A DNA stretch of 64,000 bases from Bryoerythrophyllum caledonicum. Taxonomy: Eukaryota; Streptophyta; Bryopsida; Pottiales; Pottiaceae. Every line of letters starts with the position of its first letter. The stretch's first letter is position 1. Positions 12,078 to 58,090 of this stretch are shown piece by piece. Under the pieces are notes generated by a model that saw only the letters and a list, made by a program, of their open reading frames with translations, had not been told where the DNA came from and did not search any database. The stretch lies in contig OZ020516.1 in the NCBI GenBank assembly GCA_963971425.1, positions 16,108,593 through 16,172,592 of the forward strand, written 5' to 3'. The position numbers and the translations under genes are program-made.

Positions 12078-12779
12078 TCATTCACTCTCTGAATGCTGAT
12101 CCATTTTGACTGGTGTGTATCCACATTCGTCACAGGCACGTGGACCTGCGGCAAGGATCATAAATGACTGCACGAGCTCAGGATTCTGAGCCATCTCCAG
12201 CAGAACAAATTTAGACGCGCTCACCTCCTTGAAGTTGCGGAGGATGTACTGATGGCAAATGTCCTTAAACGACACAAATACGCTCATGCGGTAGAAGTCC
12301 CAGCAGTTCTCAGGCGACAGATTCCTGGGCAGAGCGTCAGCAAACACCGCACTGAGTCGTTCCATCACTTCGAACTTGACGGCCGCCTCATAGAGCTGCC
12401 GGAAGCGCCTGTCCACCGCCTCGCGGAGCTCCAGCATCGCAGGATTCATGCGCTCCTCACATGAGATGTAGATCAGGAGCACAAACAGCTGCAGAGTTTC
12501 AATGCTCATCTCTTTCACATCGACGGCGGAAGTCATGCCATAGTTGATCTTGAAGCTGAAGTCTGAGGACACTGTTGCTAAGACGCATTTGTGCGCTCGC
12601 ATTGAGCCTCCTCGAGCTTGGAGGGTGATGTCGGCGTGAGTGCCTTCCATGAGCATCTGCACCAGTACCGGGTCCGAGCAACGTGATGTGACTGTAATCC
12701 TCGACCTCTCCATATTCTCCTCGGATAAGCCTGAGGCGAGGAACTTGGAAGGGTCCACGTTCAAGCTGGAACACGCCAT
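12078..12779 (-). CDS. BTB/POZ domain protein, tandem copy 1
   Basis: 233-residue protein. I start at the ATG at 12779 (MACSSLNVDPSKFLASG), because the three paralogues align from here and a splice acceptor (TTGTTGCAG) lies just upstream, indicating at least one 5' exon or leader intron. The BTB core is visible at about residues 45-70 (HADITLQARGGSMRAHKCVLATVSS: V/I-x-G-x-x-F-x-A-H-K-x-x-L-A-x-x-S pattern), followed by a helical BACK-like region and a C-terminal CDECGYTP (C-x2-C). Such proteins usually homodimerise and act as CUL3 E3 adaptors or scaffolds; the substrate is unknown. Loop residues of the BTB fold (INYGMTS) differ from copies 2 and 3. First of a same-strand array. Confidence 0.75.
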   Translation of the reverse strand: MACSSLNVDPSKFLASGLSEENMERSRITVTSRCSDPVLVQMLMEGTHADITLQARGGSMRAHKCVLATVSSDFSFKINYGMTSAVDVKEMSIETLQLFVLLIYISCEERMNPAMLELREAVDRRFRQLYEAAVKFEVMERLSAVFADALPRNLSPENCWDFYRMSVFVSFKDICHQYILRNFKEVSASKFVLLEMAQNPELVQSFMILAAGPRACDECGYTPVKMDQHSESE

Positions 12780-13838
12780 AGCCCCTGATCCAGCTCTGCA
12801 ACAAGAAGTAAATAAGACCTTGAACACAAAAACAATGTGGATAAAAAATTTCCATGCTCCATGAAACAAAGGTAACGTCGTCTCTTCGAGCCACTTCATT
12901 CCCGATCTCCTCAGGTAGACACTCCACAAAATCAATAGTTTCTACACGTTTTGCCAAATTCTGAGGTCTATCAGGGCTTGACATAATAAGTAGAATGAGC
13001 AGTTTGCTCTTGCTTATCAACAGTACTACGTAGAATTTGACTCGTGCTGATTGATGTGTACACAGATCCTTCCCTCCATGCACGTTCCTATGGACTCGCA
13101 ATCTTGGAGCTGAATACATCAGACGGAAAAGCCTTACTACCTGAGACGCAGTTTTACTGACAAACGGGAGGCGCACGAAACGAACACAGAAAAACACCAA
13201 GAAAGTCAGAGATGAGGGGAGCAAGACCAAGCGTCCCTTGTAGCTAGAATTCTGCCAAGCTGCGTCAAATTGGAAGTGGAAATGAGGAGGCGGCCATCTT
13301 TCCTCAAAGCACAAAAAAGGGCTCAAGAGGAAGGAGAGAGCAGCCTTCTTTTCTGGCCTGATTTGATGGTAGCCTGATGTGATGCTAGCCTGATGTCGAG
13401 TGCGTGCCAGGCTTACAAGACGCGGTGCGAGTCGCCCACCCACGCCGTCGCCTCTTGGCGCGGTTTTTCTCCCCGTCAAGTTCAACGAGCGCCACTCCGC
13501 GCCCACTCTCTGCCCTCGTGTCTGATCGTGCGCCAGGGGCATTCATCACCCACTACAACGCTCTCCGAGTCTCAGATCTCGTAGCCACCTGTGACCTGAG
13601 TGCAAATGACACCACTTCGTTGTTGGTGATGCGCTGGTTCGAGAACAAGGTTTTAGACTGGTGAAGTTGTCGTGAGGCGCTTCTCTCGGGCGGACCTTCA
13701 CCACGGGAAGTAAGACATCAGATCCGGCTCAGCATGGTTTGTGCAGCGGCGACTGTGGAAGTTGAGGAGCTCTTGGGGCTCTCGTCAGTCGATTCAGATT
13801 GACCTCTCAACGTCAAGCGCTGTAGATACATTGCCATT
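12780..13838 (-). other. Upstream region of BTB copy 1
   Basis: Homologous to the region upstream of BTB copy 3 (about 17,520-18,100), sharing TACGTAGAA and TTGGAAGTGGAAATGAG blocks, so it probably holds the promoter and 5'UTR exons. The long open frame through it (12,499-13,542) is not conserved as protein and is rejected. A segment at 13,735-13,820 recurs at 15,822-15,912 and marks the duplication unit. Confidence 0.5.
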
Positions 13839-14058
13839 TTGGTTGATTGGTGGGAGAACTTATAAGATTCTACATGTGGGCCTAATTGTTTTTTTATTAA
13901 ACTCCTTCTACAAGGAAATTTTCGGAACGCTAAACTTTCAAGGAGGTACGACACTAAACAGTGCCAAACCTAAGCTCAGATTTATTTTGAAGTCAAACGT
14001 AATAATAAAAAGTTAGGCCCTCATGTAGAATCTTGTTAGCTTCCTCCACCAACCAACA
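13839..14058. mobile_element. About 220-bp MITE with 45-bp inverted ends
   Basis: The ends are inverted repeats (left TTGATTGGTGGGAGAA ... AAGATTCTACATGTGGGC; the right end is its reverse complement with a few changes). The paralogous segment at 15,912 continues without this sequence, so it is an insertion postdating the duplication. Target duplication not resolved; class unknown. Confidence 0.7.
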
Positions 14059-14139
14059 AAAGCAAAAATAAAAAAACAAATCCCGTTTATAGTGATTTTA
14101 TTCTGAGTATCCTACTGAACAAGTTGTATGGCTCCACTT

Positions 14140-14853
14140 TCATTCACTTTCTGAATGCTCCTGATCCATTTTCACTGGTGTGCATCCACACTTGTCACAG
14201 GCACGGGGAGTTGCGGCAAGGATCATGAATGACTGCACCAGCTCAGGATTCCGGTTCATCTCCACCACGACCCGTTTAGACGCGATCACCTTCCTGAAAT
14301 TGCAGAGGATGTACTGATGGCAAACATCCTTCAACAATACAAACGTGCTCATGCGGTAGAAATACCAGCAGTTCTCCGGCGACAGATTCCTGGGCAGAGC
14401 GTCAGCAAACACCGCACTCAGCCGCTTCATCACTTCGTACTTCATGGCCATCTCATAGAGCGGCCGGAAGCGCCTGTCCACCGCCTCGCGGAGCTCCAGC
14501 ATCGCAGGGTTCATGCGCTCCTCACATGAGATGTAGATCAGGAGCACAAACAGCTGCAGAGTTTCAATATCTGTGATGGAGTCCACGGCGTAAATCAGGT
14601 GCTCTCTCTTGCCGTTGTTGAACATGAAGGCGAACGCTGAGGACACTGTTGCTAAGACGCACGTGTGCGCTTGAATTGAGCCTCCTCGAGCTACGAGGGT
14701 GATGTCGGCGAGAGTGCCTTTCATCAGCATCTGCACCAGTACCGGGTCCGAGCAACGTGTTGTGAGGGTGATTCTCGACTTCTCCATATTCTCCTCGGAT
14801 AAGCCTGAGGCCAGGAACATGAAAAGGTCCACGTTCAAGCTGGAAGACGCCAT
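14140..14853 (-). CDS. BTB/POZ domain protein, tandem copy 2
   Basis: 237 residues from the ATG at 14853 (MASSSLNVDLFMFLASG), with the same layout as copies 1 and 3: BTB core (ADITLVARGGSIQAHTCVL), BACK-like helices with the invariant block MLELREAVDRRF, and C-terminal CDKCGCTP. It shares a 3' flank with copy 1 (GAGTATCCTACTGAACAAG). The open frame extends upstream past the splice acceptor without another conserved start. Likely functional, as no internal stop is seen. Possible CUL3-type adaptor. Confidence 0.75.
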   Translation of the reverse strand: MASSSLNVDLFMFLASGLSEENMEKSRITLTTRCSDPVLVQMLMKGTLADITLVARGGSIQAHTCVLATVSSAFAFMFNNGKREHLIYAVDSITDIETLQLFVLLIYISCEERMNPAMLELREAVDRRFRPLYEMAMKYEVMKRLSAVFADALPRNLSPENCWYFYRMSTFVLLKDVCHQYILCNFRKVIASKRVVVEMNRNPELVQSFMILAATPRACDKCGCTPVKMDQEHSESE

Positions 14854-15647
14854 AGCTCCACACGCACGGACTGAATGCCTGCCCCTGATCCAACCTGCAA
14901 CAAGATAAGAATAAGACCCTGAACACAAAAGAATGTGCATGCGAAATCTTCATGTTACATGAAACAAACATAGATTAACCCCAACGTACCGTGCCTGTGA
15001 CCGTGCCCAGAAATCAACAGGAAAACACCAAGAGAAGCAGAGTTGTGAGGAGCAACACCAACCGTCCCTTGCAGCTAGAACTCTGCCAAGCTGCATCAAG
15101 TTGGAAGTGGAAATGAGAAGCAGGCCAGAAGGGCTTAAGAAGATGAGAGAGCATTCATGAAGCCATGCCACCTGGAAGTTGGTAGGACTTAATTAGTGCG
15201 CCGGCGAGGATTACATCATTGATGATCATCGATTAGGCATTGATAATGCTGCCTTCGTTTGATAAAGATCACGAAGTTCTCAAGGTGTTGTCAACATCCA
15301 TAGGAGCTTGGAATGTCCTTGCCGCTCTACAATGTGCCTTCTAGCTACTCCAGCTATCAGTCAAGGATATCATCTGCAATTGAACGATGTAGCGTAGTCT
15401 GAAATCTGAAGTGCGGACTTGGTTCTAATGACTTTCTCTGTACAGTGTTGGCAAAGTTTTGGTTTCTTTAGAAGGAGAGCTGCTGCCAGGGCATTGGAGG
15501 TATGTTTCGGATTGCAAGTTATATCTATTCCTCTTTGCTATATTTGAACAGGATCTACTTGTGGTGGCTACAAGAGCTCTTTGAAGGGCCTGATGCCCAC
15601 ATCATCGACGAGTGCAGTTACGTGGGCTATTTAATACCAATATAACG
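14854..15647 (-). other. Upstream region of BTB copy 2, with the empty site for the MULE
   Basis: Holds the putative leader and promoter of copy 2. From about 15,190 to 15,370 it is paralogous to 18,040-18,236 joined directly to 28,024-28,085, so it shows what the 9.8-kb MULE insertion site looked like before insertion (GTCCTTGCC at 15,315-15,323). Confidence 0.7.
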
Positions 15648-15772
15648 ACACAACCGTGCTTATGCGGTAGAAATGCCAGCAGTTCTCAGGCGACAGATTC
15701 CTGGCCAGAGCGTCAGCAAACACCGCCATGAGCCGCTTCATCACCTGGCAGTCGTTGGCCGCAGCATAGAGA
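15648..15772 (-). pseudogene. BTB gene fragment
   Basis: About 125 bp matching the middle of the BTB genes (region encoding LSAVFAD ... RNLSPENCW and the preceding helix), closest to copy 3 (shares TGGCAGTCGTTGGCCGC). No start, stop or flanking exons: a relic of unequal exchange in the array. Confidence 0.75.
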
Positions 15773-16498
15773 CACCAGGAATAATGCATCGTTTCTAACG
15801 CTTACGGCTTTGCATCGTCTCGTGCAGCGGCGAGTGTGAAGTTGAGGAGCTCTTCGGGCTCTCGTCAGTCGATTCAGATTGTCCTCTCAATGCCAAGCGC
15901 TGTGGATACATTACCTTCACAGATCACTGTTGGGTTCCTGAACGCTGACTGCTCGACAGTATCATGTTCTGCACTAGAGTTGAGGTGCTCTTCACGCTTG
16001 TACGAGCCTCTTGTAAGTCGATCTGCGAGATCTCTCGGTGAAATCTCTTCACATGTCTCACAAATCTCACTTTCATTCTACCTTCACAACTCAGCTCTTA
16101 CATTCTGCCTTCGCAAATCTCACAAATCTCTCTCACAGACCTGTATCTGACTTGTCTAATCTTGTTCTGTGATTTCGTTTCCGAGTTAGTCACAAGCAGC
16201 TCTAGAGACCTGGAACCAATACCACCACTTTGAAGCAAAATGGTTTCTTTTCCACATGACAGACTTTTGCATTGGAGTTTTCATTCCAGGGCAATGAGCT
16301 GCTGGTTCAAACTAAGAAACTGGAATCACGTATAAGCGAGCCAACATCTTAACTCATAAAATTTGGTGTAGATGATGTGTTTCAAAACTAGAATTGCCCA
16401 GAGTCCTACCTACATGATATCATCACTAGACTTCTGAGTATCCTACTGCACACATTGCGCAAGTTTTGTGGCTCCACTTTCATGGACTCTCTGGAAGC
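15773..16498. other. Spacer between BTB fragment and BTB copy 3
   Basis: Contains the duplicated unit-boundary segment (15,822-15,912) and the shared 3' flank of copy 3 (from about 16,386). No gene seen. Confidence 0.5.
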
Positions 16499-17167
16499 TC
16501 ACACTGGTGTGTGTCCACATCTGTCACAGGGACGTGGACGTGCGGCAAGGATCATAAACGACTGCACGAGCTCAGGATTCCAATTCATCTCCACCTCAAT
16601 ACTTTCAGACGCGCTCACCTCCTTGAAATTGCGGAGGATGTACTCTCGGCAAATATCCCGCAACGACCAGTTCGTGCTCTTGCGGTACAGGTCCCAGCAG
16701 TTCCCAGGCGACAGATTCCTGGCCAGAGCGTCGGCAAACACCGCACTGAGCCGGTCGATCACCTGGCAGTCGTTGGCCGCATCATAGAGCGGCAGGAAGC
16801 GCCTGTCCACCGCCTCGCGGAGCTCCGGCATCGCAGGGCTCATGCGCTCCTCACATGAGAGGTAGATCAGGAGCAAAAACAGCTGCAGAGCTTCAACGTT
16901 CATAAAGTTGAAGTCGACGGCGGAAACCATGCGAAATTTGCACATGGAGGCGAATGCTGGGGACACTGTTGCTAGGACGCATCTGTGCGCTCGCACTGAA
17001 CCTCCTCGAGCTTGGAAGGTGATGTCGGCGTGAGTGCCTTCCATGAGCATCTGCACTAGTACTGGGACTCGTGATGAGACGGTATTCATCGACGTCTCCA
17101 TATCCTCCTCGAATAAGCCTGAGGCGAGGAACTTGGAAGGGTCCACGTTCAAGCTGGTAGGCACCAT
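16499..17167 (-). CDS. BTB/POZ domain protein, tandem copy 3
   Basis: 222 residues from the ATG at 17167 (MVPTSLNVDPSKFLASG). BTB core HADITFQARGGSVRAHRCVL, then PELREAVDRRF and the C-x2-C end CDRCGHTPV. It stops about 12 residues earlier than copies 1 and 2, and lacks the CSD of TSRCSDPVL (here SSRVPVL, an in-frame loss of three residues). Several loop positions differ, so it is the most diverged copy, but the frame is intact. Confidence 0.72.
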   Translation of the reverse strand: MVPTSLNVDPSKFLASGLFEEDMETSMNTVSSRVPVLVQMLMEGTHADITFQARGGSVRAHRCVLATVSPAFASMCKFRMVSAVDFNFMNVEALQLFLLLIYLSCEERMSPAMPELREAVDRRFLPLYDAANDCQVIDRLSAVFADALARNLSPGNCWDLYRKSTNWSLRDICREYILRNFKEVSASESIEVEMNWNPELVQSFMILAARPRPCDRCGHTPV

Positions 17168-18227
17168 AGCTCCACACATTCTGACTAAATTCTTGCCCCT
17201 GATCCAGCTCTGCAACAAGAAGTGAACAATGTTAGAAGGTGAAAACTTGAAGTTAAACAGTCATCCAAATGGTTGAACTTCCTGTCTGTTGGACTTCAGT
17301 TGGTTGAGCTTCAAGTTAGCTACAGTACATATTGATCGTTGATGTGTCTTATGAAGTATCTTTTTGTATCAGCGATCGTCAGCGTAGCTAAGATGTAAGC
17401 ATGCATGCTTAGTGAAGACGTAGGAAGTTGATAACTAGATCAGAGAGTACATGATGTACAGTTGCAACTTTGCTGCATATGAATAAAGCTTCATTCACAG
17501 ATCATAGAATTTAATAAACAAGACTTACTACATGAAACAAACGTCGTATCATCTCTTCGAGCCACCGTCGTTCCCAATCTCATTATGTAGACACTCCGCA
17601 ATAACAATAAACTCCATACGTTTAACCAAATTCTGAGGTCTATCAAGACTTGGCATAATATGTAGACTGAGAAGTTTGCTCTTGCTTGCCCACAGTACTA
17701 CGTAGAAGTTGGCTCGTGCTGATTGCTGTGTACACAGATCCTTCCCTCCATGCACTGCAATCTTGGAGCTCAATACATCAAACGGAAGCACCTTACTACC
17801 CATGATGCGGTTCTACTAGTGACGACCGTGCACAGAAATCAAAAGTATGAGACAGAGAATCACCAAGAGAAGCAGAGCTGTGGAAGCAACACCGACCGCC
17901 CCTTGAAGCTAGAACTCTGCCAAGGTGCATCAAGTTGGAAGTGGAAATGAGAGGGGGACATCTCTCCATAAGCCAGACAAAGGGCTTAAGAAGAGAGCGT
18001 TCATGAAGCCATAAGAGTAAATTGCCACTTGGTAGTAGTTGATGAGTGCGCCGGCCAGGAATTACATCATTGATGAACGAAATTATGCGCCGGCCTGTTA
18101 CCACAGCAGTGAGGAACTAAAACGTTTTTGAATATTGGAGCTCAAACTCATTAGGCATTAATAGTGCTCATATGATAAAGATCACAAAGTTCTCAAGGTA
18201 TTCTCAACATCCATAGCAGCTTCAATG
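17168..18227 (-). other. Upstream region of BTB copy 3
   Basis: Paralogous to the upstream regions of copies 1 and 2. The last 190 bp continue, after the transposon, at 28,024-28,085. No separate gene seen. Confidence 0.5.
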
Positions 18228-18236
18228 GTCCTTGCA
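18228..18236 (+). repeat. 9-bp target-site duplication, left
   Basis: GTCCTTGCA immediately before the MULE TIR; an identical copy is at 28,024-28,032. Nine base pairs is the classic Mutator duplication length. Confidence 0.92.
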
Positions 18237-18768
18237 CCCGGTCACTACAGTCAATCCGGGTTCGCGGTGTCAGGGCCTGGTTTTAGGCCTGACACCGCGA
18301 AAAGCGGCCCTTCTACCTGCGCGCCTTTCCGCCTCCATGTAACCTTCTTCCCACAATAACGTCCACTTTCGCACACATTTTTCGCCCCGACACGTGTACA
18401 CCAGAATGACCCGTCCTTCTCGGCGGCTGTGAAGTGCCATCCACATCGTTTCGTACGGCGCCGTCTTTGGCATGATCATTGTACCGTGTAGTACACTACC
18501 GGAAGGGGATTGCTTGTCTACGCGTGAATGGACTTCCTCGATCTCAATCTCCCCATACAAGACAAGTCTGATGGGAATTCTAGCGAGACGGCGCCACCAA
18601 CCGTTGCCGATAACGGGGCAACACGGAGGAAATGGAGGCGTCAAGGGAGAAAGAAACCGGCTGGTGTGCATGAGAAGGGGGTGAAGGACCTTGATGCCGC
18701 GTTCCGGGAAGGCCTGTATGCAGAGTACCTGAAGAAACACGCTTGGAGGGTTCTTCGGATGCCCGATT
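18237..18768 (+). repeat. Left terminal inverted repeat of the MULE
   Basis: About 532 bp matching the reverse complement of 27,440-28,023 with scattered substitutions. It lacks a segment of about 45 bp present in the right TIR that carries a GCCGATAA motif. Weak homology resumes after a gap (18,770-18,825 versus the transposase exon at 27,290-27,340). Confidence 0.9.
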
Positions 18769-18842
18769 CGAAGAGGAAGCAATCCAACCTTATCGACTAC
18801 ATTCTTAGGGATAGAAGAAGGTGGCTACTTGGTTTAGGTTAG
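18528..18842 (+). pseudogene. TIR-borne copy of the transposase 5' exon
   Basis: Open frame of 104 residues (starts MDFLDLNLPIQDK) lying mostly in the left TIR. It is the mirror of the transposase first exon at 27,459-27,680 plus a little of exon 2 (SKRKQS). The left copy keeps a Gln codon where the right copy has a stop, so the two TIRs have diverged. Probably a by-product of TIR homogenisation rather than a separate gene. Confidence 0.6.
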
Positions 18843-19019
18843 GTTAGGCGTTCATCATCACCATCAACGTGAAACCCTAATACAATCATGGCAAAGTTTT
18901 TTGTAGCAGCACCATTTCCCGCACATTCGAACTATGTTTTTTGCCGTCTAGCGACATATCCAGGAAGTCCAAGCTCTGCGTCAGCGATCGCTGCTTCAAA
19001 ACCTTGAAATCGCCGACGG

Positions 19020-19276
19020 AACTTTTCGGTAAGTTCCCTGCCCTTCTATCTTTCTATTTCATTCCATTTCGGTAAGTTCTCTGTCATTCTTTCTTCTCAT
19101 TTCTTTTCGGTTTATTCCCTGTCCTTCTTTCATTCCATTTCAAATGTGGGGCGTTGGAAAGTATGCTGTGTGAAGATGTAGGAAATTTTGCAAGGCGTCC
19201 AGGTTTAGGGTTTCAAGGTTTTAGGGTTTTAGGGTTCTCGATAATCGTTTCGGGCAATAAGGTTTCATGTTCGGCA
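19020..19276 (+). promoter_or_regulatory. Leader of the second MULE gene, with pyrimidine repeats and telobox-like tract
   Basis: Three imperfect copies of a TTTCGGTAAGTTCCCTG-like block (19,024-19,141) and an AGGGTTT-rich tract (19,201-19,236) precede the first good ATG. Probably 5'UTR or promoter; possible alternative donors (CGGTAAGTT) occur twice. Confidence 0.4.
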
Positions 19277-21278
19277 ATGTCCTCCCTCGCAGGACCGAAA
19301 AAATGCCGAAGCGGCCGGGGTGTTTCTGCAAGGCACTATTTGATGAGATCCCGGTGGACAATAGGAAAGTGGTCTCCCACCTACAACGAGGAAACGGGGA
19401 GGATCGAGCAGCTATTTGTCATTGAGAAGGACCACATTTGGCGCGATAGCTGGGAGGTGATGGAGGCGAGGGCCCTTATCCTAGAGCTGCATGGACCGGA
19501 CTCGCCCATCGTACCGGTTGGACAAACCGGCCTCAAGCAGATACTGTGCATACATTGCAACACGACGCACCAGAAGCACATGTTCAACCTCCACCGCAAC
19601 CATACATTGTGCGAAGGGAAGGGGAAGGTGGGCGTAAAGATGCCGTCGAATCCCAATTTGGGCGTCAAGGATGTGGCAAACTTTGTGGCACGACTTCGGG
19701 ATTGCGGGTCGGTGGAAGAAGCCATTGAGGTTTTCGCCACCATAGAGCCGATAGCCACGAAGAGGAGGCCTCGAAAGGCTGCCGATAATGAGGAGGAATT
19801 TATTAGTGGAGTCCCAATTAAGCACGGCAAGAAGGTGGCATAGGCGGCACAGGAGGGTCGTCCACAGAAGCGTACCTCTATGCCTTCTCGGAAAGACCTT
19901 CGCCCCCGAAAGCGGAGTTCAGTGACGATACTTCTTCGTCGGCAGAGTTGGGAGGAGATCACAACACAAATCATGAGGCCGATAACGTAGGCACTCTGGC
20001 TGTTTACGCCGACAAGGACGGTCTTCACTCCGGAGATGATGCCTCTAGAAATTCCGGTGCCAAGAACCCGATATCCAAGGTCCGAAAGCCCGCACTCGCG
20101 CTGGTGCTGAAGAGCGATTCCTCTATCCTGCTCTGGAAGACCGAGCCTGCGAAGCAGGCTGTACCGAAGAAGAAGGTGGCAAAAGCTGAAGAGGCCACGA
20201 AGAAGGCAAGATTTGAAGACTCCACGAAGAAGACAAAAGCTCTCAATCCCCCAGCAATGGCGAAAAGGCTTACGGGAATGTCTGTGGAAGAGACCGCTAT
20301 GGCGAGAAGGCCTCGAGCCCCGCCGGCTTCACAGCGGTTGAGAGAGACGAGTATTGCCGAGAGACCCTCCAACTCTGACATTGGCCCGCCGATAACCTCG
20401 AACGAATGCCTCCCGACCTCGGCCCAGATGGAATTTCGACAGCCGCTGACAATGGCCAAGATACTTCGGGCAGGCTCTGATGAAGGTGCGAATCTCGATA
20501 ACCACCTCATTCTGCCGGACAAAGGTAGCAGTGAGCAAGGTTTGGAGTTGGAGAGGGCCGAAATGATACGACAGGCGCAGGAGGACGCTGAACGTATTTT
20601 TTCGCTTTGGAGAGTGCTCTCCCCCAAAAAGAAGGTACCGATAACGCCGTTGTACCTACTCCTCAAGCCCAGTCTCCTCGACACTATCACGATGGACAGT
20701 TTAAAGTCCAAAGATGACCTATTGAAATACGTCTTGTGTATGGTGGAGTCTGGAGGCCACCAGGGCACGTTCCACCAGGCTCTCGGTGCCTGCATTTCCG
20801 AAGGGGGCGGCTTCGCCGATAACGAGGTTTCGCTTCCACAGCTAACAACCCTTTGCAATCTGGCAAAGAATCCCGATGGCGGTACTGCGCAAGAGGTTTG
20901 GAAAGAGGCAGTGATAGGAACGTGGGCATACATGACACACGAGAAGGAGTGCGTCGAGTATGTAGCTAGGCGTACAACCGATGTGTAGAGCACAAAGCGG
21001 TTAAGGGAGAAGTTAGTCTGCAACGAGATTCAGAAATTTGATGCGGAAAGGGCGGTGGAGAGAGAGGCTATTCAATGGGACTTCAACAACCTCTTCGGGT
21101 ATTGCGCGATGAACGAAATTCTTCGACCATTGTTGCACCCACTACCATGGAGGCACAACATTGACGAGGCTCGAGAGGTCGTGCACCGTCTAGCGCGGAT
21201 CAGAATCGAGAGTGTCCCGTCGCCGGCTCCAGCTATGCTATTGAAGTGTTACTTCGTTTGCAACGGGTTCTCTCGGGT
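19277..21278 (+). pseudogene. MULE second gene, 5' part: zinc-finger-like protein
   Basis: From the ATG at 19277 (MSSLAGPKKCRSGRG) the product has a CIHC ... H ... HRNH ... C cluster (about residues 95-115), which resembles a BED/C2H2-type zinc-binding site, then a Lys/Glu-rich linker and a helical region (ERIFSLWRVLSPKKKV, then CNLAKNPDGG). The frame is interrupted: it ends at TAG 19,841-19,843, resumes one frame over from about 19,844, meets a second TAG at 20,986-20,988, and continues in the same frame to a good donor (GTAAGT at 21,279). Across that intron the reading joins 21,464 in frame. I do not recognise the family beyond the metal-binding pattern. As a possible DNA-binding protein it is the natural candidate to read the element's repeated motif, but that is inference. 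Confidence 0.55.
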
Positions 21279-21463
21279 GTAAGTTTTTCCTTCTCGCCAC
21301 AGACTTGTCCCTTATCGTCTCTTCTCATCCCTTATCGTCTCTTATCGTCCCTCATTGTCCCTTATCGTCCCTTATCGTCTCTTATCGTCTCTTATCGTCT
21401 CTTATCGTCTCTTATCGTCTCTTATCGTCCCTTATCGGCTGACGTGACTCCGTTGTTTTTCAG
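21279..21463 (+). repeat. Intron filled with a 10-bp minisatellite
   Basis: The intron (donor GTAAGT, acceptor TTTTTCAG) contains a tandem array from about 21,310 to 21,440 of CTTATCGTCT/C units, 11 of which have an intact TTATCG. The last unit is TTATCGGC, identical to the element-wide motif on the opposite strand. Confidence 0.85.
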
Positions 21464-23166
21464 GGGGCGGAATATGTGCAACCCTAGCGTAATCCCTGGG
21501 CCTGCCAGCGTTGCAATGTACGTGGACCCTCCAGAGACAAATTGGGATGGGCCGTCTCAAATGTACGAAGTCCTGAGTCCCTTCCTCTTCAGAAGGGACG
21601 CATCCGAACAGCACCTCCCTATATCGCAGGCGTTCTCGCGGCTCCGGGACAATAAGCACGGCGGGCAAGATTCGGTGTTACGCTTCATCGCAATGGTCCA
21701 TGCTCGCACTGTCGTGGACATGGCAAGGAGTCACCCAAAGGATTTCGTTCGACAGTGGTGTGCTGCCGATAAAGGTACCTACGAACACTCAGATATCCTC
21801 GACAAAAACTGCTTGGCGAGGGAGGATCTGGACTTCATGTATGCCGGCTTCGTTCCGATAACCCCATCATTCATCTAACTGTTTTCTTCCTCATTCTTGG
21901 TATCTCTATTATTTCCATGTGACTAAACGATAAGCCTTGTGCAGGCACTGTAGATCCTACCGGGGCACGCGAAAGGGAACTTGCTGAGGCAGAGTGCAAG
22001 AACGTTGTGTCGCGTCTGGTAACGACAGAGTGGGATCGACGAGAATGGCATCCAGTGACTTCACATGACGAAATTCGGCAGGAAACATCTATCCGAACAA
22101 GGGACCTCGAGGGTACAGATGCCCTTCTTCACATGGACGAGGGAACCTCAAATAAATTCCGCGTCCAGAATCGGTACCCGAGGAGTAACGACGACGAAGG
22201 ATTCTCCGATAAGCCGTTGGATGAAGTTACGGAGGAAGCACAAGAGGGGACTTGCGATGAAATATCTCAGGGAGGTGTTCCCGAATTGCCCAAGGAAGAG
22301 CCCGCTACTACAGCGGTGAAGTCACCGGTGAGTCCTGCCGATAACCCAGCTCACATGGAGTTTTCTTGAACACAAGCAATGAATGACCCTACCCTGGACA
22401 TTGCGGAGTCTTCACAGTGGCCAATGGGGCCATCTCAATTCGAGACCCCTCGTCATCATGTTGTGTTTGGGGGTACAGGGGAGACGGAATCCAGCATGAA
22501 ACCCCACCGTCTATCGTTCTCTTTGTTGAGTCAAAGTATTGAAAACCTGGACTCTACTGACAGTCCTCCGGTTGTTCCCGAGGAGCCCTGCGTCGCACGC
22601 TTGGAGGATCATCCAATCCCCGAGAATCCTCCCTCTTCGGAGTCCGATAATGCTTCTCCGCCAGAGCCCTATAACCATGCTCCTCGGCCAGAACCCGTTA
22701 AGCCTACTCCTCTGCTAGAGGCCGTTAAGAGTGCTCCTCAGCCAGAGCCCAATAGCCGTGCTCTGCCGCCAGAGCACGATAACCATGCTCCTCCACCAGA
22801 GCCCAATAACCCTACTCTTCCGCCAGAACCCGTTAAGCCTGTTCCTCTGCCAAAGCCCGATAGCCTTGCTTCAAAGGAGATGGACCCCGAGGATATCAAA
22901 CTTGCTTTGCGCTTTATCAAGGAAGCACATGAATCTCGCTTGACTAGTATTTGGGTTTATCCTGGACTCGAAGAGCGTGTTCAGAACGGAAGGGAAGGAC
23001 AGAAGGTGGCATATACGTACATGTTGGCGGAGAATCGCGGAATATATACGTTAGATTCTGTGTCTTGGGAGAAAGAGCCCTCGCTCTGTTACGAAGCCGA
23101 GGAGCATGACGAATCCACGATAGAGAAGAACCTCGGTATTATTGTGGAGGTCCTAAAACTCATGTG
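21464..23166 (+). pseudogene. MULE second gene, middle exons
   Basis: Two open stretches, 21,464-21,878 (contains MCNPSVIPGPASVAMYVDPP) and about 21,950-23,166, the second broken by TGA at 22,367-22,369. Acceptor-like TTGTGCAG ends at 21,945. Product: acidic linker followed by a proline-rich region (22,630-22,860) made of about eight imperfect repeats of PEP-x-N/K-x-x-x-PP, then a short globular segment ending at a donor-like site near 23,164. No family recognised. Almost certainly part of the same gene as the flanking exons. Confidence 0.5.
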
Positions 23167-23253
23167 AGTGTCGTCGTCTATGTTATCGTGTTCTCCGACA
23201 CCTGTTGTATATCGGCATTTGTTGTCTAACATCCCCTTTCTTCTGAATTGCAG

Positions 23254-24277
23254 GCCTCGTTTTATTCACCAAAAGAACCTCACTGGAGGTATGAGGTTTT
23301 TCGGTCCAGACCTTCGGCAAGTTGTGGATGTCTCGCTTGCACTACAGGACTGGCATTGCGTGCTAAAGGACAAGCGGGAAATGGAAGGGACATTTCTGGA
23401 TTTCCTCCTTAGGCATATCGTCTACCGTGCGAAGGAGCATGTTCGAATCCAGTATCATCACACGCACAACTGGTTATCGGCGACGTTGTAGTGCTATCTG
23501 GCGGACTCTGAAAAGGACTGGAATGACATCGTGAGCTTTCTGAGCCGCTCGTTTCATACGACTAGCAAGTTGCCCAATACCCTTATCGTCCCTTACCACG
23601 ATAAAGGTCACTGGAGCGTTTTCGTCCTGGAGCAAAGACGAACATATCAGCTGGAACCAGCAAAAGGTATGTACAAGGGTAGAGAAGTGGACAACCTTCT
23701 CTTCCTTCTGCACATGGGATGGGCAAACGCGAAGGGCGTGAAGGTCGGATCCAAAAGTTGGCGAGAATGGGAGAGTCGAGACTCGAGAGCCGATAAGGTT
23801 GCCTCTGCCTAATCAGCGAGAAAGCTGGGAGTGTGGTTTCATGGCAGGCATGGCCTTTTGGCAGTACCTTATCGCACGTGGTGGGCGTTAAGAGGTGGAG
23901 GATTAGACCGTGACAATGGGAACAAAATATTTGGACTCGGACGGGAAGAAGGCGTACCGATGGTTCATGCAAGTGCTATACACGGAGATTGTCGCACCGC
24001 TTCCGTTCCACGATGCTCTCAATCTATGTGGACAGGATACGGTGGAGTTCGGAAGCGGAAGTCCGGACGTTGTTTTCGTGGAAGCCGGTACAAGGACGGC
24101 GAAGAAGAAGGAAGTCCCAATTCTCGGTATTTCGGAGACAGGGGGAAACGTGAACTTCAGGGCTTCAACGTGCTGACAAACCCACCAGTGACTCGAGGAA
24201 GGCGGAAGAAGGCAATAGCTAAAGAAGGGGCAAAGAAACCAAGAAAATCGAAGGGCACCACCAAGACGAAGAAGTAG
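23254..24277 (+). pseudogene. MULE second gene, 3' part: Ulp1/C48-like cysteine protease
   Basis: Exon after a TTGCAG acceptor. TAG at 23,489-23,491 interrupts the frame, then comes the C48 signature: IVPYHDKGHWSVFVLE (catalytic His before Trp), a YQLEP stretch where the family normally has Asp, and, one frame over after a lesion near 23,790-23,800, LPNQRESWECGFMAG with the oxyanion Gln and catalytic Cys. C48 enzymes cleave SUMO/Ub-like isopeptide bonds; their role in transposons is not settled. Stops at 23,892 and 23,904 follow. The final part of the region (to the TAG at 24,275) encodes a Lys/Arg-rich tail. With frameshift and stops, this copy cannot make the intact protease. Confidence 0.75.
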
Positions 24278-24610
24278 GCGATAAGGGGGGGGGGGCTGCT
24301 ATACACAGCCGATAGACTCCAGGAATTTGTACAGATTAATAGGATGCCGAGGTTGTACATTTCATTCATTGTAAATGACAAATTTTTCGATAATATACTC
24401 GAACCGAATTTGAGATCCACTTGAGGCCTCTAAGGGGAACTTAAAATCCAGTCTTTGCCGATTATATTGAAGGTTAAGTTTTAACTTCATAACTAAAGAC
24501 TTAGCCGATATACATCTTCACTAGAAATATCAAGAGATGCATGGAACTTAATCTAAGAGCATCTTATCGGCAGTATTCCTTCAGGAGATTACTAATGGTT
24601 ATCGGTGCAA
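24278..24610. other. Intergenic strip between the two convergent MULE genes
   Basis: AT-rich stretch holding the 3' ends of both genes. It contains four CGATAA/TTATCG cores (24,279; 24,388; 24,564; 24,599) and several one-off variants (CCGATAT, CCGATAG, CCGATTA). Confidence 0.6.
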
Positions 24611-27600
24611 TTAACCACCAAAAATCCTCTGCCCTTTATCCTCAACCACATCAAAACCAATAACCAAAGCCGTTTCTTGAGTTTGTCTTTCGCTAGCTGG
24701 AACGGACCTCACCCGAAAACCTCTGGAATCCACGAAGTCATGCAATCTTCGGAGCCTCATTCCAAGACCGTCTTCATTTGTGGGGAGCGGTGCAGCTATC
24801 TCCTGGAGTGGATGAAGCATTCCGGCTTCGATTTCAGCCTCCAACCTTGAGAGGGTGGCGTCGGTGTTGCGCAAAGCTGCATCCAAGTGCCTTGCCAGCA
24901 ACGGTTGCCGATAAGCCTTGTCGAGTAGCTTCAGGACAAACTGATGCATATGATCAAAGTTGCATACCCATGTCTCGCCTAATTCTCGAAGGTTGGAAGC
25001 AACTAGGATTACATCTCCGATTTCGGTATCGGAGGGGACATCATTATCCGGGAAGCCCTCGGTATTCGGGTGTCGACCATTGTCTTGGCGGAGGAGATTT
25101 GTCATTCCACCTTGGATTGTGCCACGAAGGGAGCCCAGATATCTAGCAATTTTTCCCTCCGCCAGGTCAGGTCTTGTCATTTTCAAGACCTTAACCTGGT
25201 GCTTACAGATGTTTCCTTTCTAGGAATGAACACATTGGTAGACGGCCCATTCGGTGCATGGGTTGTATACCGCATACGTAAGATGTCTTCTATTCGAGGA
25301 TTTAACAAATGCAGGACCTTCCGACCACTCGGGCAGGGTGACCACATTATCGGGAATTATATTTGCTTGGTTGATTGCATTGACCATGGTCTACCGTTGC
25401 CTCTTGATTTTTATAAAACCGTTCAGCTTACACTAGTGACTGTAATCATACTTCTCAATGACATTTCCAGTGAGCTCATAAATAACCCAGTCCATCCTTC
25501 GGCCGATAACTTCCTTTTGGATTGCCGGAGCAGTGCTTTCATGTTAGAATGGTATGATTCGATTGCTGCAGTGGTGTCCTGGCCAGCGTGGGGGATTTTC
25601 CGGTCTCTCACAACCCACATTTTGATTTTCGGGAGCCATTCCTTGTTGAAGTATTTCCAGTATGCATCAGCGGTAGGCAAGAGAGCCTTGGCTTCGCCGT
25701 AGACGTATTGCACCCACTCTACCAAATTCCACACCTTATCGCCGGGAGCTCTCGTCGAAGGGTCTTGGAAGTCACTTGGTGTCTCCGATACATACATAAG
25801 TGAGCCCACAATTCGCAAGGCTCCGGCCCTCATCTCCATGTCTTTCAACTTAGCACATGCATTATTCTGCCATGCTCGACGAACATGTCAGAGACATAGA
25901 AATAGATGTGAGTGCGGCCAAACCTCCATGGGATAACCCGACATCCCGATAAGTACAACTCACCGAAGGCCCGTCACCCGATAACGTAAGAATGCTAAAT
26001 CACTTACCGAAGAGAGTTGATCTCATTATCGGCGTCGTCAAGAAGAAAGGCACTGGGTCTCCAATCCGGCCTTATCTGCACCAACTTCTGCTTTAGAGCG
26101 CGCATCCAAGGCACGAGATCTATTTGTTTGGATTTCGCAGTGATCACGAAAGCCACTGGAACCCCGTTTCTCCACTCGTCGAATACCATCATCGTGAAGA
26201 GCGGATACTAGACACGTAAGCAAAAAATTAATCGGTAGAATAGTGAGTGCTCCTAAATTCTAGACGGACCCTAAAAAGATTACGGTATAGGTATGAGTAC
26301 CTTTTTGTTGTTCGTTGCGAATGTCCCGTCTATAGCAATAATGCTTTCGTGACTGTATTTCAGCATCATGTGCGTCTCAAATGGGGTTTGAATCCCAATT
26401 ACGAAGGGTACGTTATCGGCATTCAGTACTCCGTCAACCTTGCTGCCCGGGTCTTGGTAGTAAAAATCCGTACCTCGATTTTCTCTTACCCACATTCTCA
26501 CACTCTCAGCATCGTTGTTGTGTTTCTTGTATAGTTCGTGCGCACAGACTCCGCATATGTTGCGGATGTCCTCCATGCTAAGGAAACAATCCCGAAAAGG
26601 TGTAAGAATGCTCTCATCGCGTGCCTTCAGTACCAGCTTCTGGTGTTTCTGTATTATAGCTGCCATCAGAACTTGCTCCTCAAATTGCCTGAGAACCCAA
26701 AGCCTTACTTCCTCCGACATGTACTTCCGAAAGCGGAGCTTTCCCCTCTGCACATTGTTCTTATCGTGGACAATGAGGCCCTGTATGTCAACATGTTCCG
26801 AGCAAAAGTACCCTATCTCGGCGATATATGAGAGGAAATAGTACTTCTTTACGTAGAATCGACATTGGCAGCCCACCTTCATAGACCCCCCCTCCTTTGC
26901 ATCGGTGGCACGAGGGCCTTTCTGGCCAAGGCCGGAAGTAACTTGTTTCCCTTTGTGATTGTATTTTGATGGCGTTGGTATCATTTCGGGCATGATAGCT
27001 TGGATCTTATCTCTGTTGTCTTCGGGACCGTATTGACACCGCCATTTGCAATCAGCTATGACCATTAGAGATACCTGCACTACTGAAGAGATATTACGGC
27101 ACAGCCGATAAGAAGATCTACTGTGCATATCGTGATATCAGAGGTCGAGATTCACTTACCGCTGGTACTCAATGTGGCAGTTCCACCGATAGTGCGTCTT
27201 CTCGCCGACGTTTGTGGGGTCGTTCTTGTCGCGGACAAAGGTAGTCTCTACATCCTTTCGGCCAAACTGCTCACCCTCCACAAAATCCAAGATCCTATCC
27301 CAGGGAATATAGGCGATAAGCTTGGACTGCTTCCTCTTCGATGATTGCGGGTCCTCTACGAACCTCGTATCATTCTCGGCCTCCATGTTCCACTTAAGAC
27401 ATTTCCATGTCAAAATTCCTAGAGGAGGGTTATGTAATTAATCGCGCATCCGAAGAACCTTGTCTCCGTGTTTCTTCAGGTAGTCTGCATGCGGGCCTTC
27501 CCGAAACGCGGCATCAAGGTCCTCCACCCCCTTCTCACGCACGCCAGCCAGTTTCTTTCTCCCTTGACGCCTCCATTTCCTCCCTGCTGCCCCGTTATCG

Positions 27601-27680
27601 GCAACGGTTGGTGGCGCCGCCTCGCTAGAATTCCCATTCGGCTTGTCCTATATGGGGAGATTGAGATCGAGGAACTCCAT
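24611..27680 (-). pseudogene. MULE transposase (MuDR-type), multi-exon, inactivated
   Basis: Exons inferred: 27,459-27,680; 27,160-27,392; 26,301-27,074; 26,008-26,207; about 25,433-25,923; about 24,611-25,387. An N-terminal Cys-containing DNA-binding region (WNCHIEYQR ... CKWRCQYG ... CQCRFYVKKYY) precedes the MULE catalytic core: IIAIDGTFATNNKK (first Asp), MMVFDEWRNGVPVAF, FLLDDADNEINSL (second Asp), then LCL-stop-HVRRAW where Trp is expected, and TTAAIESYHSNMK. The C-terminal SWIM finger reads YQCVHS-stop-KGNICKH, so the first Cys of C-x-C is Tyr and a stop (25,220-25,222) follows. A further stop lies in exon 1 (right TIR). The exon 4/5 junction does not keep frame as I read it. It would bind the TIRs and cut DNA in the nucleus, but this copy is dead. 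Confidence 0.85.
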
Positions 27681-28023
27681 TCACGAGGAGACAAGCATTC
27701 CCCTTCCGGCAGGGTACTACACTGCACAATGGATCGTGCCAAAGACGGCGTCAACGCAAACGATGTGGATGACACTTCGCGTCGGCAGCCGCTAAGGACG
27801 GGTCATTCTGGAGTACACGTATTGGGGCGAAAAGGGGCTATCGGCAAGAATGCCGATAAGGGATACGGGCAACGCGAAAAAATGTGTGCGAAAGTGGACA
27901 TTATCGTGGGAAGAAGGGCGCATGGAGGCGAAAAGGCGTGCGGGGAGAAGGGCCGCTCTTCGCGGTGTCAGGCCTAAAACCGGGCCCTGACACCACGAAC
28001 CCGGATTGACTGTAGTGACCGGA
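27440..28023 (-). repeat. Right terminal inverted repeat of the MULE
   Basis: About 584 bp, reverse complement of the left TIR and including the transposase first exon and promoter. Relative to the left TIR it has about 45 extra bases near 27,830-27,880 containing GCCGATAA (27,852) and a TATCGGC half copy. Confidence 0.9.
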
Positions 28024-28032
28024 GTCCTTGCA
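28024..28032 (+). repeat. 9-bp target-site duplication, right
   Basis: GTCCTTGCA, identical to 18,228-18,236. The host sequence then continues as in the paralogue at 15,324-15,370. Confidence 0.92.
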
Positions 28033-57682: not shown

Positions 57683-58080
57683 AAAGGCCTTGTTGTATAG
57701 GGACCCACAAAGCCCTTGGGGGAGATGACATGTTGGTTGCCTCTAAGGCAATTAGTGTAGAAAAGTGTTTACCCTCAAGAGGGGGGAATAGATCTATTAC
57801 ACTAGCCCATGTCTCGTGGCCATATGCTTAGTGAAGAGAATGAACAATCACTATATTCACGCCGGTCTCCTTCTTCTTCTTCTTCTTCTTCTTCTTCTTC
57901 TTCTTCTTCTTCTTCTTCTTCTTCTTCTTCTTCTTCTTCTTCTTCTTCTTCTTCTTCTTCTTCTTCTTCTTCTTCTTCTTCTTCTTCTTCTTCTTCTTCT
58001 TCTTCTTCTTCTTCTTCTTCTTCTTCTTCTTCTTCTTCTTCTTCTTCTTCTTCTTCTTCTTCTTCTTCTTCTTCTTCTTC
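57683..58080 (+). mobile_element. 5'-truncated SINE with an expanded (TTC)70 tail
   Basis: Matches the 3' half of the SINE at 39,349 (GCCCTTGGGGGAGATGACAT, GTGTAGAAAAGTGTTTACCC, GAGAATGAACAATCACTATA, CACGCCGGTCTCC), then a pure TTC array at 57,871-58,080 (210 bp, 70 units). Flanked by 10-bp duplications TTGCATTGGA at 57,673-57,682 and 58,081-58,090. The microsatellite accounts for the long poly-Ser, poly-Leu, poly-Glu and poly-Lys open frames here. Confidence 0.9.
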
Positions 58081-58090
58081 TTGCATTGGA

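Follow-up and report, generated by a model that had tools for sequence, protein, structure and literature searches.

In En/Spm and Ac/Ds, element-encoded proteins, TnpA among them, bind many short subterminal repeats that are clustered near the ends. Among MULEs, sequence-specific anti-silencing has been described for VANC21/VANDAL21 and VANC6/VANDAL6 of Arabidopsis (PMC5735166; PMC10398659), in which a VANC protein, with DUF1985 and DUF287 domains, binds a short word and causes loss of DNA methylation. The VANC targets are denser in non-coding DNA, share one orientation and lie partly in tandem arrays differing between copies (PMC5735166). VANDAL terminal inverted repeats (TIRs), in the available portion of PMC6446971, measure 46-174 bp or are missing altogether. 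According to the accessible part of PMC13317346, Kaonashi/KIU represent Ulp1-bearing VANC genes of VANDALs, and Ulp1-bearing MULEs are present in grapevine, melon and rice.

The element analysed here occupies positions 18237-28023 (9.8 kb) of the window, i.e. the whole 64-kb stretch of DNA that was studied, and its assignment to the MULEs in a preliminary description is borne out by the inverted ends, a 9-bp target-site duplication and the transposase domain. The duplication, GTCCTTGCA, is identical on the left (18228..18236) and on the right (28024-28032), and duplications of 9-10 bp were found in six of the seven sister stretches with both ends located. The left TIR (18237..18768, plus strand) is 83-92% complementary, in pieces, to the right TIR (27440..28023, minus strand); additional short matches extend to 18814 on the left and from 27295 on the right. 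A 48-bp stretch at ~27834-27881, carrying one 8-mer of the type described below and an inverted TGCCGATA, is present in the right TIR and absent from the left. The transposase gene (24611..27386, minus strand; relatives P0001-P0005) contains stops and one frame change in the window copy, and its joined translation matches PF10551 (E 8.2e-7, 29.8 bits, cut-off 27.6) as well as PF21056 (E 3e-8). However, the inverted ends exceed 500 bp, as opposed to the absent or short TIRs of VANDALs, and Pfam detected neither DUF1985 nor DUF287 in the pieces of the second, sense-strand gene or in its relatives P0006-P0008. By the features tested, this MULE is not a member of the VANDAL/VANC group.

All 18 copies of GCCGATAA/TTATCGGC previously listed for this locus were recovered, position by position, inside the MULE, with none elsewhere in the 64-kb window. 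Together with 51 CGATAA cores they span 18606..27859 on both strands, in exons, introns, the intergenic strip and the TIRs. In 100 dinucleotide shuffles of the window the 8-mer reached a mean of 1.21 and a maximum of 4, versus 18 observed; for the core, of which the window holds 59, dinucleotide shuffles gave a mean of 22.6 and a largest count of 37. The preliminary counts of about 51 cores within the element and a handful outside agree with our data, 8 of the 59 being located in the 54 kb of flanks, and so does the occurrence in both orientations (26 plus, 25 minus). Over the whole element length this amounts to roughly one CGATAA per 230 letters, and the sites are spread evenly through both genes, the spacing test on the element cores being post hoc. 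Eleven of the 51 cores belong to a single intronic tandem array (21307..21437, minus strand) of 13 units of 10 bp, hence 40 cores and one array count as independent. With the array excluded, an order-2 Markov model predicts 3.6 cores and 0.25 8-mers, versus 40 and 17 observed, and an order-4 model, which itself already holds most of the motif signal, predicts 27 (P 0.013) and 4.35 (P 3e-6), respectively; against orders 5 and 6 the 8-mer excess is absent. The cores are denser in non-coding DNA (P 0.016), reaching 8.1/kb in introns and intergenic DNA vs 4.6/kb in the TIRs (6 cores in 1305 bp), yet 23 of the 40 non-array sites are coding. In the sisters the array comprises 4-11 units in 14 of 22 stretches, and in the remaining 8 no array of at least 4 units was found. 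A coding minisatellite (22650..22870, plus strand) consists of 8 units of 27 bp, with CCGATAACC included in the consensus unit.

Sister copies were taken from the same 437-Mb genome, as 24 of 136 scored matches (910 candidates) retrieved as stretches of 10 kb. These comprised the 19 matches ranking directly below the window itself, a further one with 82% protein identity, two from the class matching residues 30-285 and two at 78-79%. Site intactness and local-mean conservation were assessed in 20 stretches, density and dN/dS in 22, and columns, hexamer ranks and third positions in all 24; the intronic array was excluded from the conservation counts, as were pairs short of the required aligned columns and, for dN/dS, stops and gaps. 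Counting gaps of up to 150 bases within the element as element, the 22 stretches hold 314 8-mers in 180 kb of element DNA vs 0 in 40 kb of adjoining DNA, where 18 cores occur; the short word is concentrated in the element relative to this adjacent DNA, where it is rare. Two low counts were retained, 2 8-mers and 16 cores in L016 (long insertion, 2.8 kb aligned) and 7 8-mers and 36 cores in L031, into which other DNA is inserted. The comparison of motif density in family copies with the shuffled level, as proposed at the outset, shows that the sisters retain the density and that selection keeps the sites.

CGATAA is under selection as DNA, because the core is conserved above matched hexamers and its A-T-A-A above the flanks, while the G/C-rich flanks are unconserved. 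Of 681 site-copy pairs, 529 (77.7%) retain the core intact vs 50.2% of matched hexamers, a difference seen both inside and outside exons, and 37 of 40 sites exceed the local mean conservation, a level reached in 0 of 10,000 resamples; as the sisters share descent, the resampling figures are not strict probabilities. In excess conservation CGATAA ranks first among 668 hexamers. A-T-A-A is conserved above every flanking column, whereas the preceding C (.931) and G (.904) fall inside the flanking-column range (.811-.935), and CpG depletion is absent in the family. Synonymous A/T third positions score.963 in cores vs.870, and exon sites are conserved over background to the same extent as the remaining sites. 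Site turnover proceeds through array change as well as point gain and loss, each of the 20 sisters having acquired cores at new positions. The preliminary description had named the 8-mer as the motif with CGATAA as its core: the core holds as the conserved unit, while GC in front of it reflects a base preference without conservation at individual sites. A conserved word of at least 8 bp was rejected, as positions -2, -1, +6 and +7 are unconserved, and so was a second word, the best hexamer after core masking reaching z 2.97 (spread over words 1.13) vs 4.14 for CGATAA. Codon use does not account for the 24 coding cores, of which a synonymous shuffle predicts 5.9 (0 of 3000 shuffles reach the observed count), nor do duplicated flanks, since the contexts flanking individual sites are unrelated to each other. 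An RNA signal is at odds with the strand balance and with word occurrences outside exons (introns, intergenic strip, TIRs). Selection for site-specific protein binding is, on these patterns, very probable.

BED-type zinc fingers carry the signature Cx2C...Hx3-5[HC]. The sense gene (19303..24277, plus strand; relatives P0006, P0007 and P0008), a candidate for encoding the reader of the word, includes a C-x2-C-x11-H-x5-C block (19547..19612, plus strand) that, from a weak sequence match, may be a BED-like or C2H2-like zinc finger; its C, C, H, H and C are invariant across three proteins, and Pfam reports no zinc finger in the sense protein. This finger-like N-terminus is followed by a loose linker, proline-rich repeats and a Ulp1-like C-terminus. 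Ulp1 peptidases (family C48) combine the C48 fold with the catalytic residues His, Asp, Gln and Cys. The Ulp1-like protease region (23492..24128, plus strand) displays His...Glu...Gln...Cys in the window copy, with Asp in P0008. P0008 weakly matches SENP2 (E 0.52 and 0.11) with His, Asp, Gln and Cys aligned; an unrelated oxygenase scores slightly above this match, a profile built from alignment A2 did not retrieve SENP2, and Pfam found no protease in the sense protein. NCBIfam yielded no match for P0006 and P0008, and solved-structure searches returned weak matches or none. The window copy of the gene carries frame changes and stops. In the 22 sister stretches, dN/dS indicates that head and tail are constrained like the transposase, in contrast to the variable repeat-bearing middle. 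The source contigs of P0006, P0007 and P0008 measure 9354, 8552 and 9308 bases, and no DNA of the relatives was found in viral_contigs or genome_contigs.

We propose that CGATAA serves as a family address tag, maintained by selection on DNA over the whole MULE, and probably, by analogy to VANC, the tag through which an element-made protein locates its own copies. The sense-strand protein would bind it via the N-terminal finger-like block, with high occupancy reached only at closely packed sites, and silent chromatin would then be removed from the family copies by the Ulp1-like domain at the C-terminus, taken by analogy as a deSUMOylase, or by some other activity. The outcome would be an anti-silencing system that functions like VANC using a different reader. 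That the reader is the sense-gene protein appears somewhat favoured by the sequence features; anti-silencing as the outcome stands at even chances, and the same balance applies to the explanation taken as a whole. Of the motif-reader pair postulated earlier, the selected family word stands, and the constrained finger-like/Ulp1-like gene makes an element-encoded reader plausible, the reader role itself being putative.

Alternatively, CGATAA may be bound by a host protein, such as a transcription factor, an insulator or a remodeller recruiter, and be exploited for openness or expression, with a different role for the sense gene. Selection on the DNA word is silent on the identity of the binder, and Pfam recognises no DNA-binding domain in the sense protein; however, a site for a host protein should also turn up in host DNA, where cores are few (8 in the 54 kb of window flanks, 18 in the 40 kb beside the sisters) and 8-mers are missing, and the element possesses a conserved coding companion gene with a finger-like block, so that we regard host binding as rather unlikely. 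Somewhat less probable still is a transposition site for end pairing or compaction, used by the transposase or an accessory protein in the manner of the subterminal repeats of other DNA transposons: both TIRs contain cores, and the extra 48 bp of the right TIR contain a motif pair, but the lower core density in the TIRs than in introns and intergenic DNA, the even spread through both genes and the exon sites conserved over background like all others argue against it. A neutral outcome of tandem duplication, composition or shared descent could draw on the intronic array, the coding minisatellite and the common ancestry of the copies, yet is very improbable given the Markov, synonymous-shuffle, matched-conservation and column tests, of which the column results together with local-mean conservation weigh strongly against it, as well as the unrelated site flanks and the core gains at new positions in all 20 sisters.

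The proposed address tag resembles the VANDAL21 and VANDAL6 systems in that a MULE contains a short word, restricted to its family, in many copies that are denser in non-coding DNA and partly arranged in tandem arrays variable between copies, along with an extra element gene that is conserved at its ends and variable in its repeat-bearing middle. However, the word is CGATAA rather than YAGTATTAY or AGTTGTCC/AGTTGTAC, and unlike the VANC21 motifs it extends into exons and TIRs, with both orientations equally represented (26 vs 25). In contrast to VANDAL/VANC, the TIRs are long, the DUF1985/DUF287 domains were not found by Pfam, and anti-silencing is predicted. Compared to the En/Spm and Ac/Ds repeats near the ends, the CGATAA sites occur throughout the element. 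An added gene with a Ulp1-like end is shared with the Ulp1-bearing VANDALs and MULEs in the accessible part of PMC13317346, where the tested anti-silencing cases are non-TIR VANDALs; the element here is TIR-type, with predicted anti-silencing, and, unlike in the cases covered by that part, its Ulp1-like domain escapes Pfam and is fused to a finger-like N-terminus. Tentatively, it may represent a TIR-type MULE lineage outside VANDAL with its own element-wide code, kept in exons at amino-acid cost and read by a finger/Ulp1-like fusion that frees copies from silencing, possibly via SUMO removal.

In conclusion, the locus provides a defined 6-bp code and a candidate for its reader, together with more than 100 scored matches of the family within a single genome. 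Such a word-reader pair could become a chromatin-opening tool for chosen loci, a use proposed for VANC (PMC5735166). The finding opens two questions, namely the repeated origin of motif-addressed anti-silencing in MULEs and the part played by the Ulp1-like domain. If the proposal is true, sequence-specific anti-silencing would be a recurrent strategy that extends beyond VANDALs.

Based on comparisons among copies of the element, combined with counts in the window, we find that CGATAA is under selection across this MULE family and is scarce in the adjoining DNA. The copy in the window (C3:16108593-16172592 of the genome) occupies 18237-28023; it is bounded by two copies of GTCCTTGCA, has inverted ends of more than 500 bp and carries a MULE transposase gene on the minus strand and a second, sense gene on the plus strand (19.3-24.3 kb), both interrupted. 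In line with the preliminary description, the element holds all 18 window occurrences of the 8-mer GCCGATAA (either strand) and 51 of the 59 occurrences of its core, CGATAA, and the 54,233 bp of window flanks hold no 8-mer and only eight cores. With an intronic tandem array (21307-21437, minus strand) excluded, the element has 40 cores and 17 8-mers against order-2 expectations of 3.6 and 0.25, respectively; the order-4 expectation for the core is 27. The 24 one-base neighbours of the 8-mer occur 0-3 times each, and those altered in its first two bases are still in excess (1-3 vs 0.2-0.3 expected), which fits a 6-bp core. Its CpG decay products, GCTGATAA and GCCAATAA, have counts of 0. Reading-frame pieces (6747 nt) contain 24 cores and 12 8-mers, compared with 5.9 (sd 2.2) and 1.2 after synonymous-codon shuffling, the observed numbers being reached in 0 of 3000 shuffles. 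Non-coding DNA of the element is richer in cores than its coding DNA (P 0.016): leaving the array aside, introns together with intergenic and 5' DNA have 8.1 per kb (11 in 1359 bp), the TIRs 4.6 (6 in 1305 bp) and exons 3.3 (23 in 6990 bp). In post hoc comparisons, both the 18 8-mer sites (CV 0.51, P 0.0015) and 42 cores, the array counted as one (CV 0.64, P 0.001), are spaced more regularly than random points.

The array unit of 10 bp is about one DNA turn, so that the array cores would sit on one helix face; there are 13 units in the window and 4-11 in sister copies, or the array is not detectable. In the right TIR, a 48-bp stretch (about 27834-27881) without counterpart in the left TIR places one 8-mer opposite TGCCGATA as an imperfect palindrome. 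Outside the element, flank ORFs, labelled by eye with the response regulator alone checked by search, are presumed to encode VARICOSE-like, maturase-like and BTB proteins and a MASE1-type kinase, a set that points to a land plant and perhaps to one outside the seed plants; three similar ORFs in a row at 12078-17260 (minus strand), which we take to be BTB-like, form an apparent local tandem duplication. A compartment border lies at about 33-34 kb: GC is 45-57% before it and only 33-42% beyond, and CpG observed/expected declines there as well, 0.76-0.89 giving way to 0.51. At 57866-58082 the triplet TCT is repeated 72 times almost without a flaw.

A search of the genome (437,360,962 bp, 894 contigs) with one transposase exon gave 136 scored matches in two classes, one window-like (residues 1-285) and a larger one over residues 30-285 (82-90%) with many uninterrupted frames. 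Among the 24 sister stretches fetched from these matches, motif density like that of the window copy recurs: the ten that cover 93% or more of the element (identity 86-90%) hold 13-20 8-mers and 40-55 cores. Two of the non-window-like class, L029 and L030, hold 16 and 54, and 21 and 47, respectively, L032 (protein identity 78%) 14 and 58, and L031, interrupted by an insertion of other DNA, 7 and 36. Over L009-L030, the 179,684 bp of element DNA contain 314 8-mers and 844 cores, whereas the 39,791 bp of non-element DNA fetched with them contain no 8-mer and 18 cores. The internal-deletion copy L014 (5.65 kb) has lost 20.05-24.32 kb, which includes the greater part of the sense gene, but retains the motif density (11 8-mers), as expected under a reader acting in trans; descent predicts the same.

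Because density alone could reflect descent, conservation was tested against matched words. When the 40 cores that lie outside the array are followed through 20 sisters, 529 of 681 site-copy pairs (77.7%) retain an intact core; for the 18 8-mers the figure is 211 of 299 (70.6%). Control hexamers and octamers, matched for GC and containing a single CpG, both give 50.2%. Against one-CpG controls at most 400 bp away the cores score 0.774 vs 0.565, with 37 of 40 sites above the local control mean and the observed mean reached in 0 of 10,000 resamples; the excess is seen at 23 coding sites (.756 vs.556) and at the 17 others (.799 vs.579). CGATAA ranks first among 668 hexamers in excess conservation (z 4.14). 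In the 20 sisters, 72 of 152 core losses are CAATAA or TGATAA, i.e. CpG decay, and each sister has 2-14 cores at places empty in the window. Column identity along C-G-A-T-A-A is.931,.904,.984,.970,.963 and.962 (40 sites, 24 copies), elsewhere averaging.872 for CpG bases and.897 for A/T. The A-T-A-A columns exceed all non-core columns from -14 to +20 (.811-.935); the core C and G fall inside that range, yet above the CpG average. The G/C-rich flanks at -2, -1, +6 and +7 (.889,.875,.811,.825) show no conservation in this alignment. At synonymous A/T third positions, identity is.963 in cores (22 sites) vs.870 elsewhere (901 sites), a value reached by 653 of 20,000 draws.

The candidate reader is the sense protein, which shares a C-x2-C-x11-H-x2-H-x2-C pattern with its relatives P0006 and P0007. 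Its C-terminal part has a single relative, P0008 (67% over 98%), which matches SENP2 weakly with His, Asp, Gln and Cys aligned (E 0.52 whole, 0.11 region); the window copy has Glu in place of this Asp. An unrelated oxygenase scores slightly above SENP2 in the P0008 search, a profile search with the alignment of the Ulp1-like region (A2) did not retrieve SENP2, and a Pfam search of the sense protein and its relatives found neither a finger nor a protease domain. Over the window copy and 22 sisters, which are not independent copies, dN/dS in the window frame is low in the finger part (.40), 22901-23164 (.44), the Ulp1-like part (.37) and the transposase (.40), higher in the linker (.70), the piece after it (.72) and 21947-22366 (.61), and 1.02 in the proline-rich repeats. 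VANC proteins, according to PMC5735166, combine conserved domains with variable, repeat-bearing regions.

The proposed mode of action would resemble that of Arabidopsis VANC/VANDAL, as described in PMC5735166 and PMC10398659. However, VANDAL TIRs are short or absent according to PMC6446971, whereas the inverted ends here exceed 500 bp; VANC carries DUF1985/DUF287, neither of which was detected by Pfam in the sense protein; and, in contrast to VANDAL, sites here also lie in exons and TIRs, in both orientations. VANC genes bearing Ulp1 are described in PMC13317346. A literature search that did not query CGATAA by name and mostly left subscription papers outside its scope returned no VANC-like system in long-TIR MULEs and no CGATAA word.

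More distant relatives are known here as proteins only. At the coding sites, a core remains compatible with the amino acids present at 1/6, 2/5 and 4/5 sites in P0006, P0007 and P0008 (all-hexamer background.37,.36,.53) and at 2/4, 2/3, 1/4, 2/4 and 1/4 in the transposase relatives P0001-P0005 (.67,.24,.56,.49,.49). Between families, coding core sites are thus kept no better than the average hexamer, and roughly half of them are impossible in the relative. Family-specific words would give this pattern, which does not thereby demonstrate another word in the relatives.

Of the motif-reader pair put forward in the preliminary description, the selected word, scarce beside the element, stands, and the reader is a reasonably likely partner that we infer. 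The sense protein would probably bind CGATAA, and there is perhaps an even chance that the outcome would be loss of silencing for copies of the family. The element has a CpG observed/expected ratio of.94, and ten sister stretches taken whole have.91-1.00, compared with.51 in the window at 34-64 kb; the high values fit low long-term methylation but could instead reflect recent spread.
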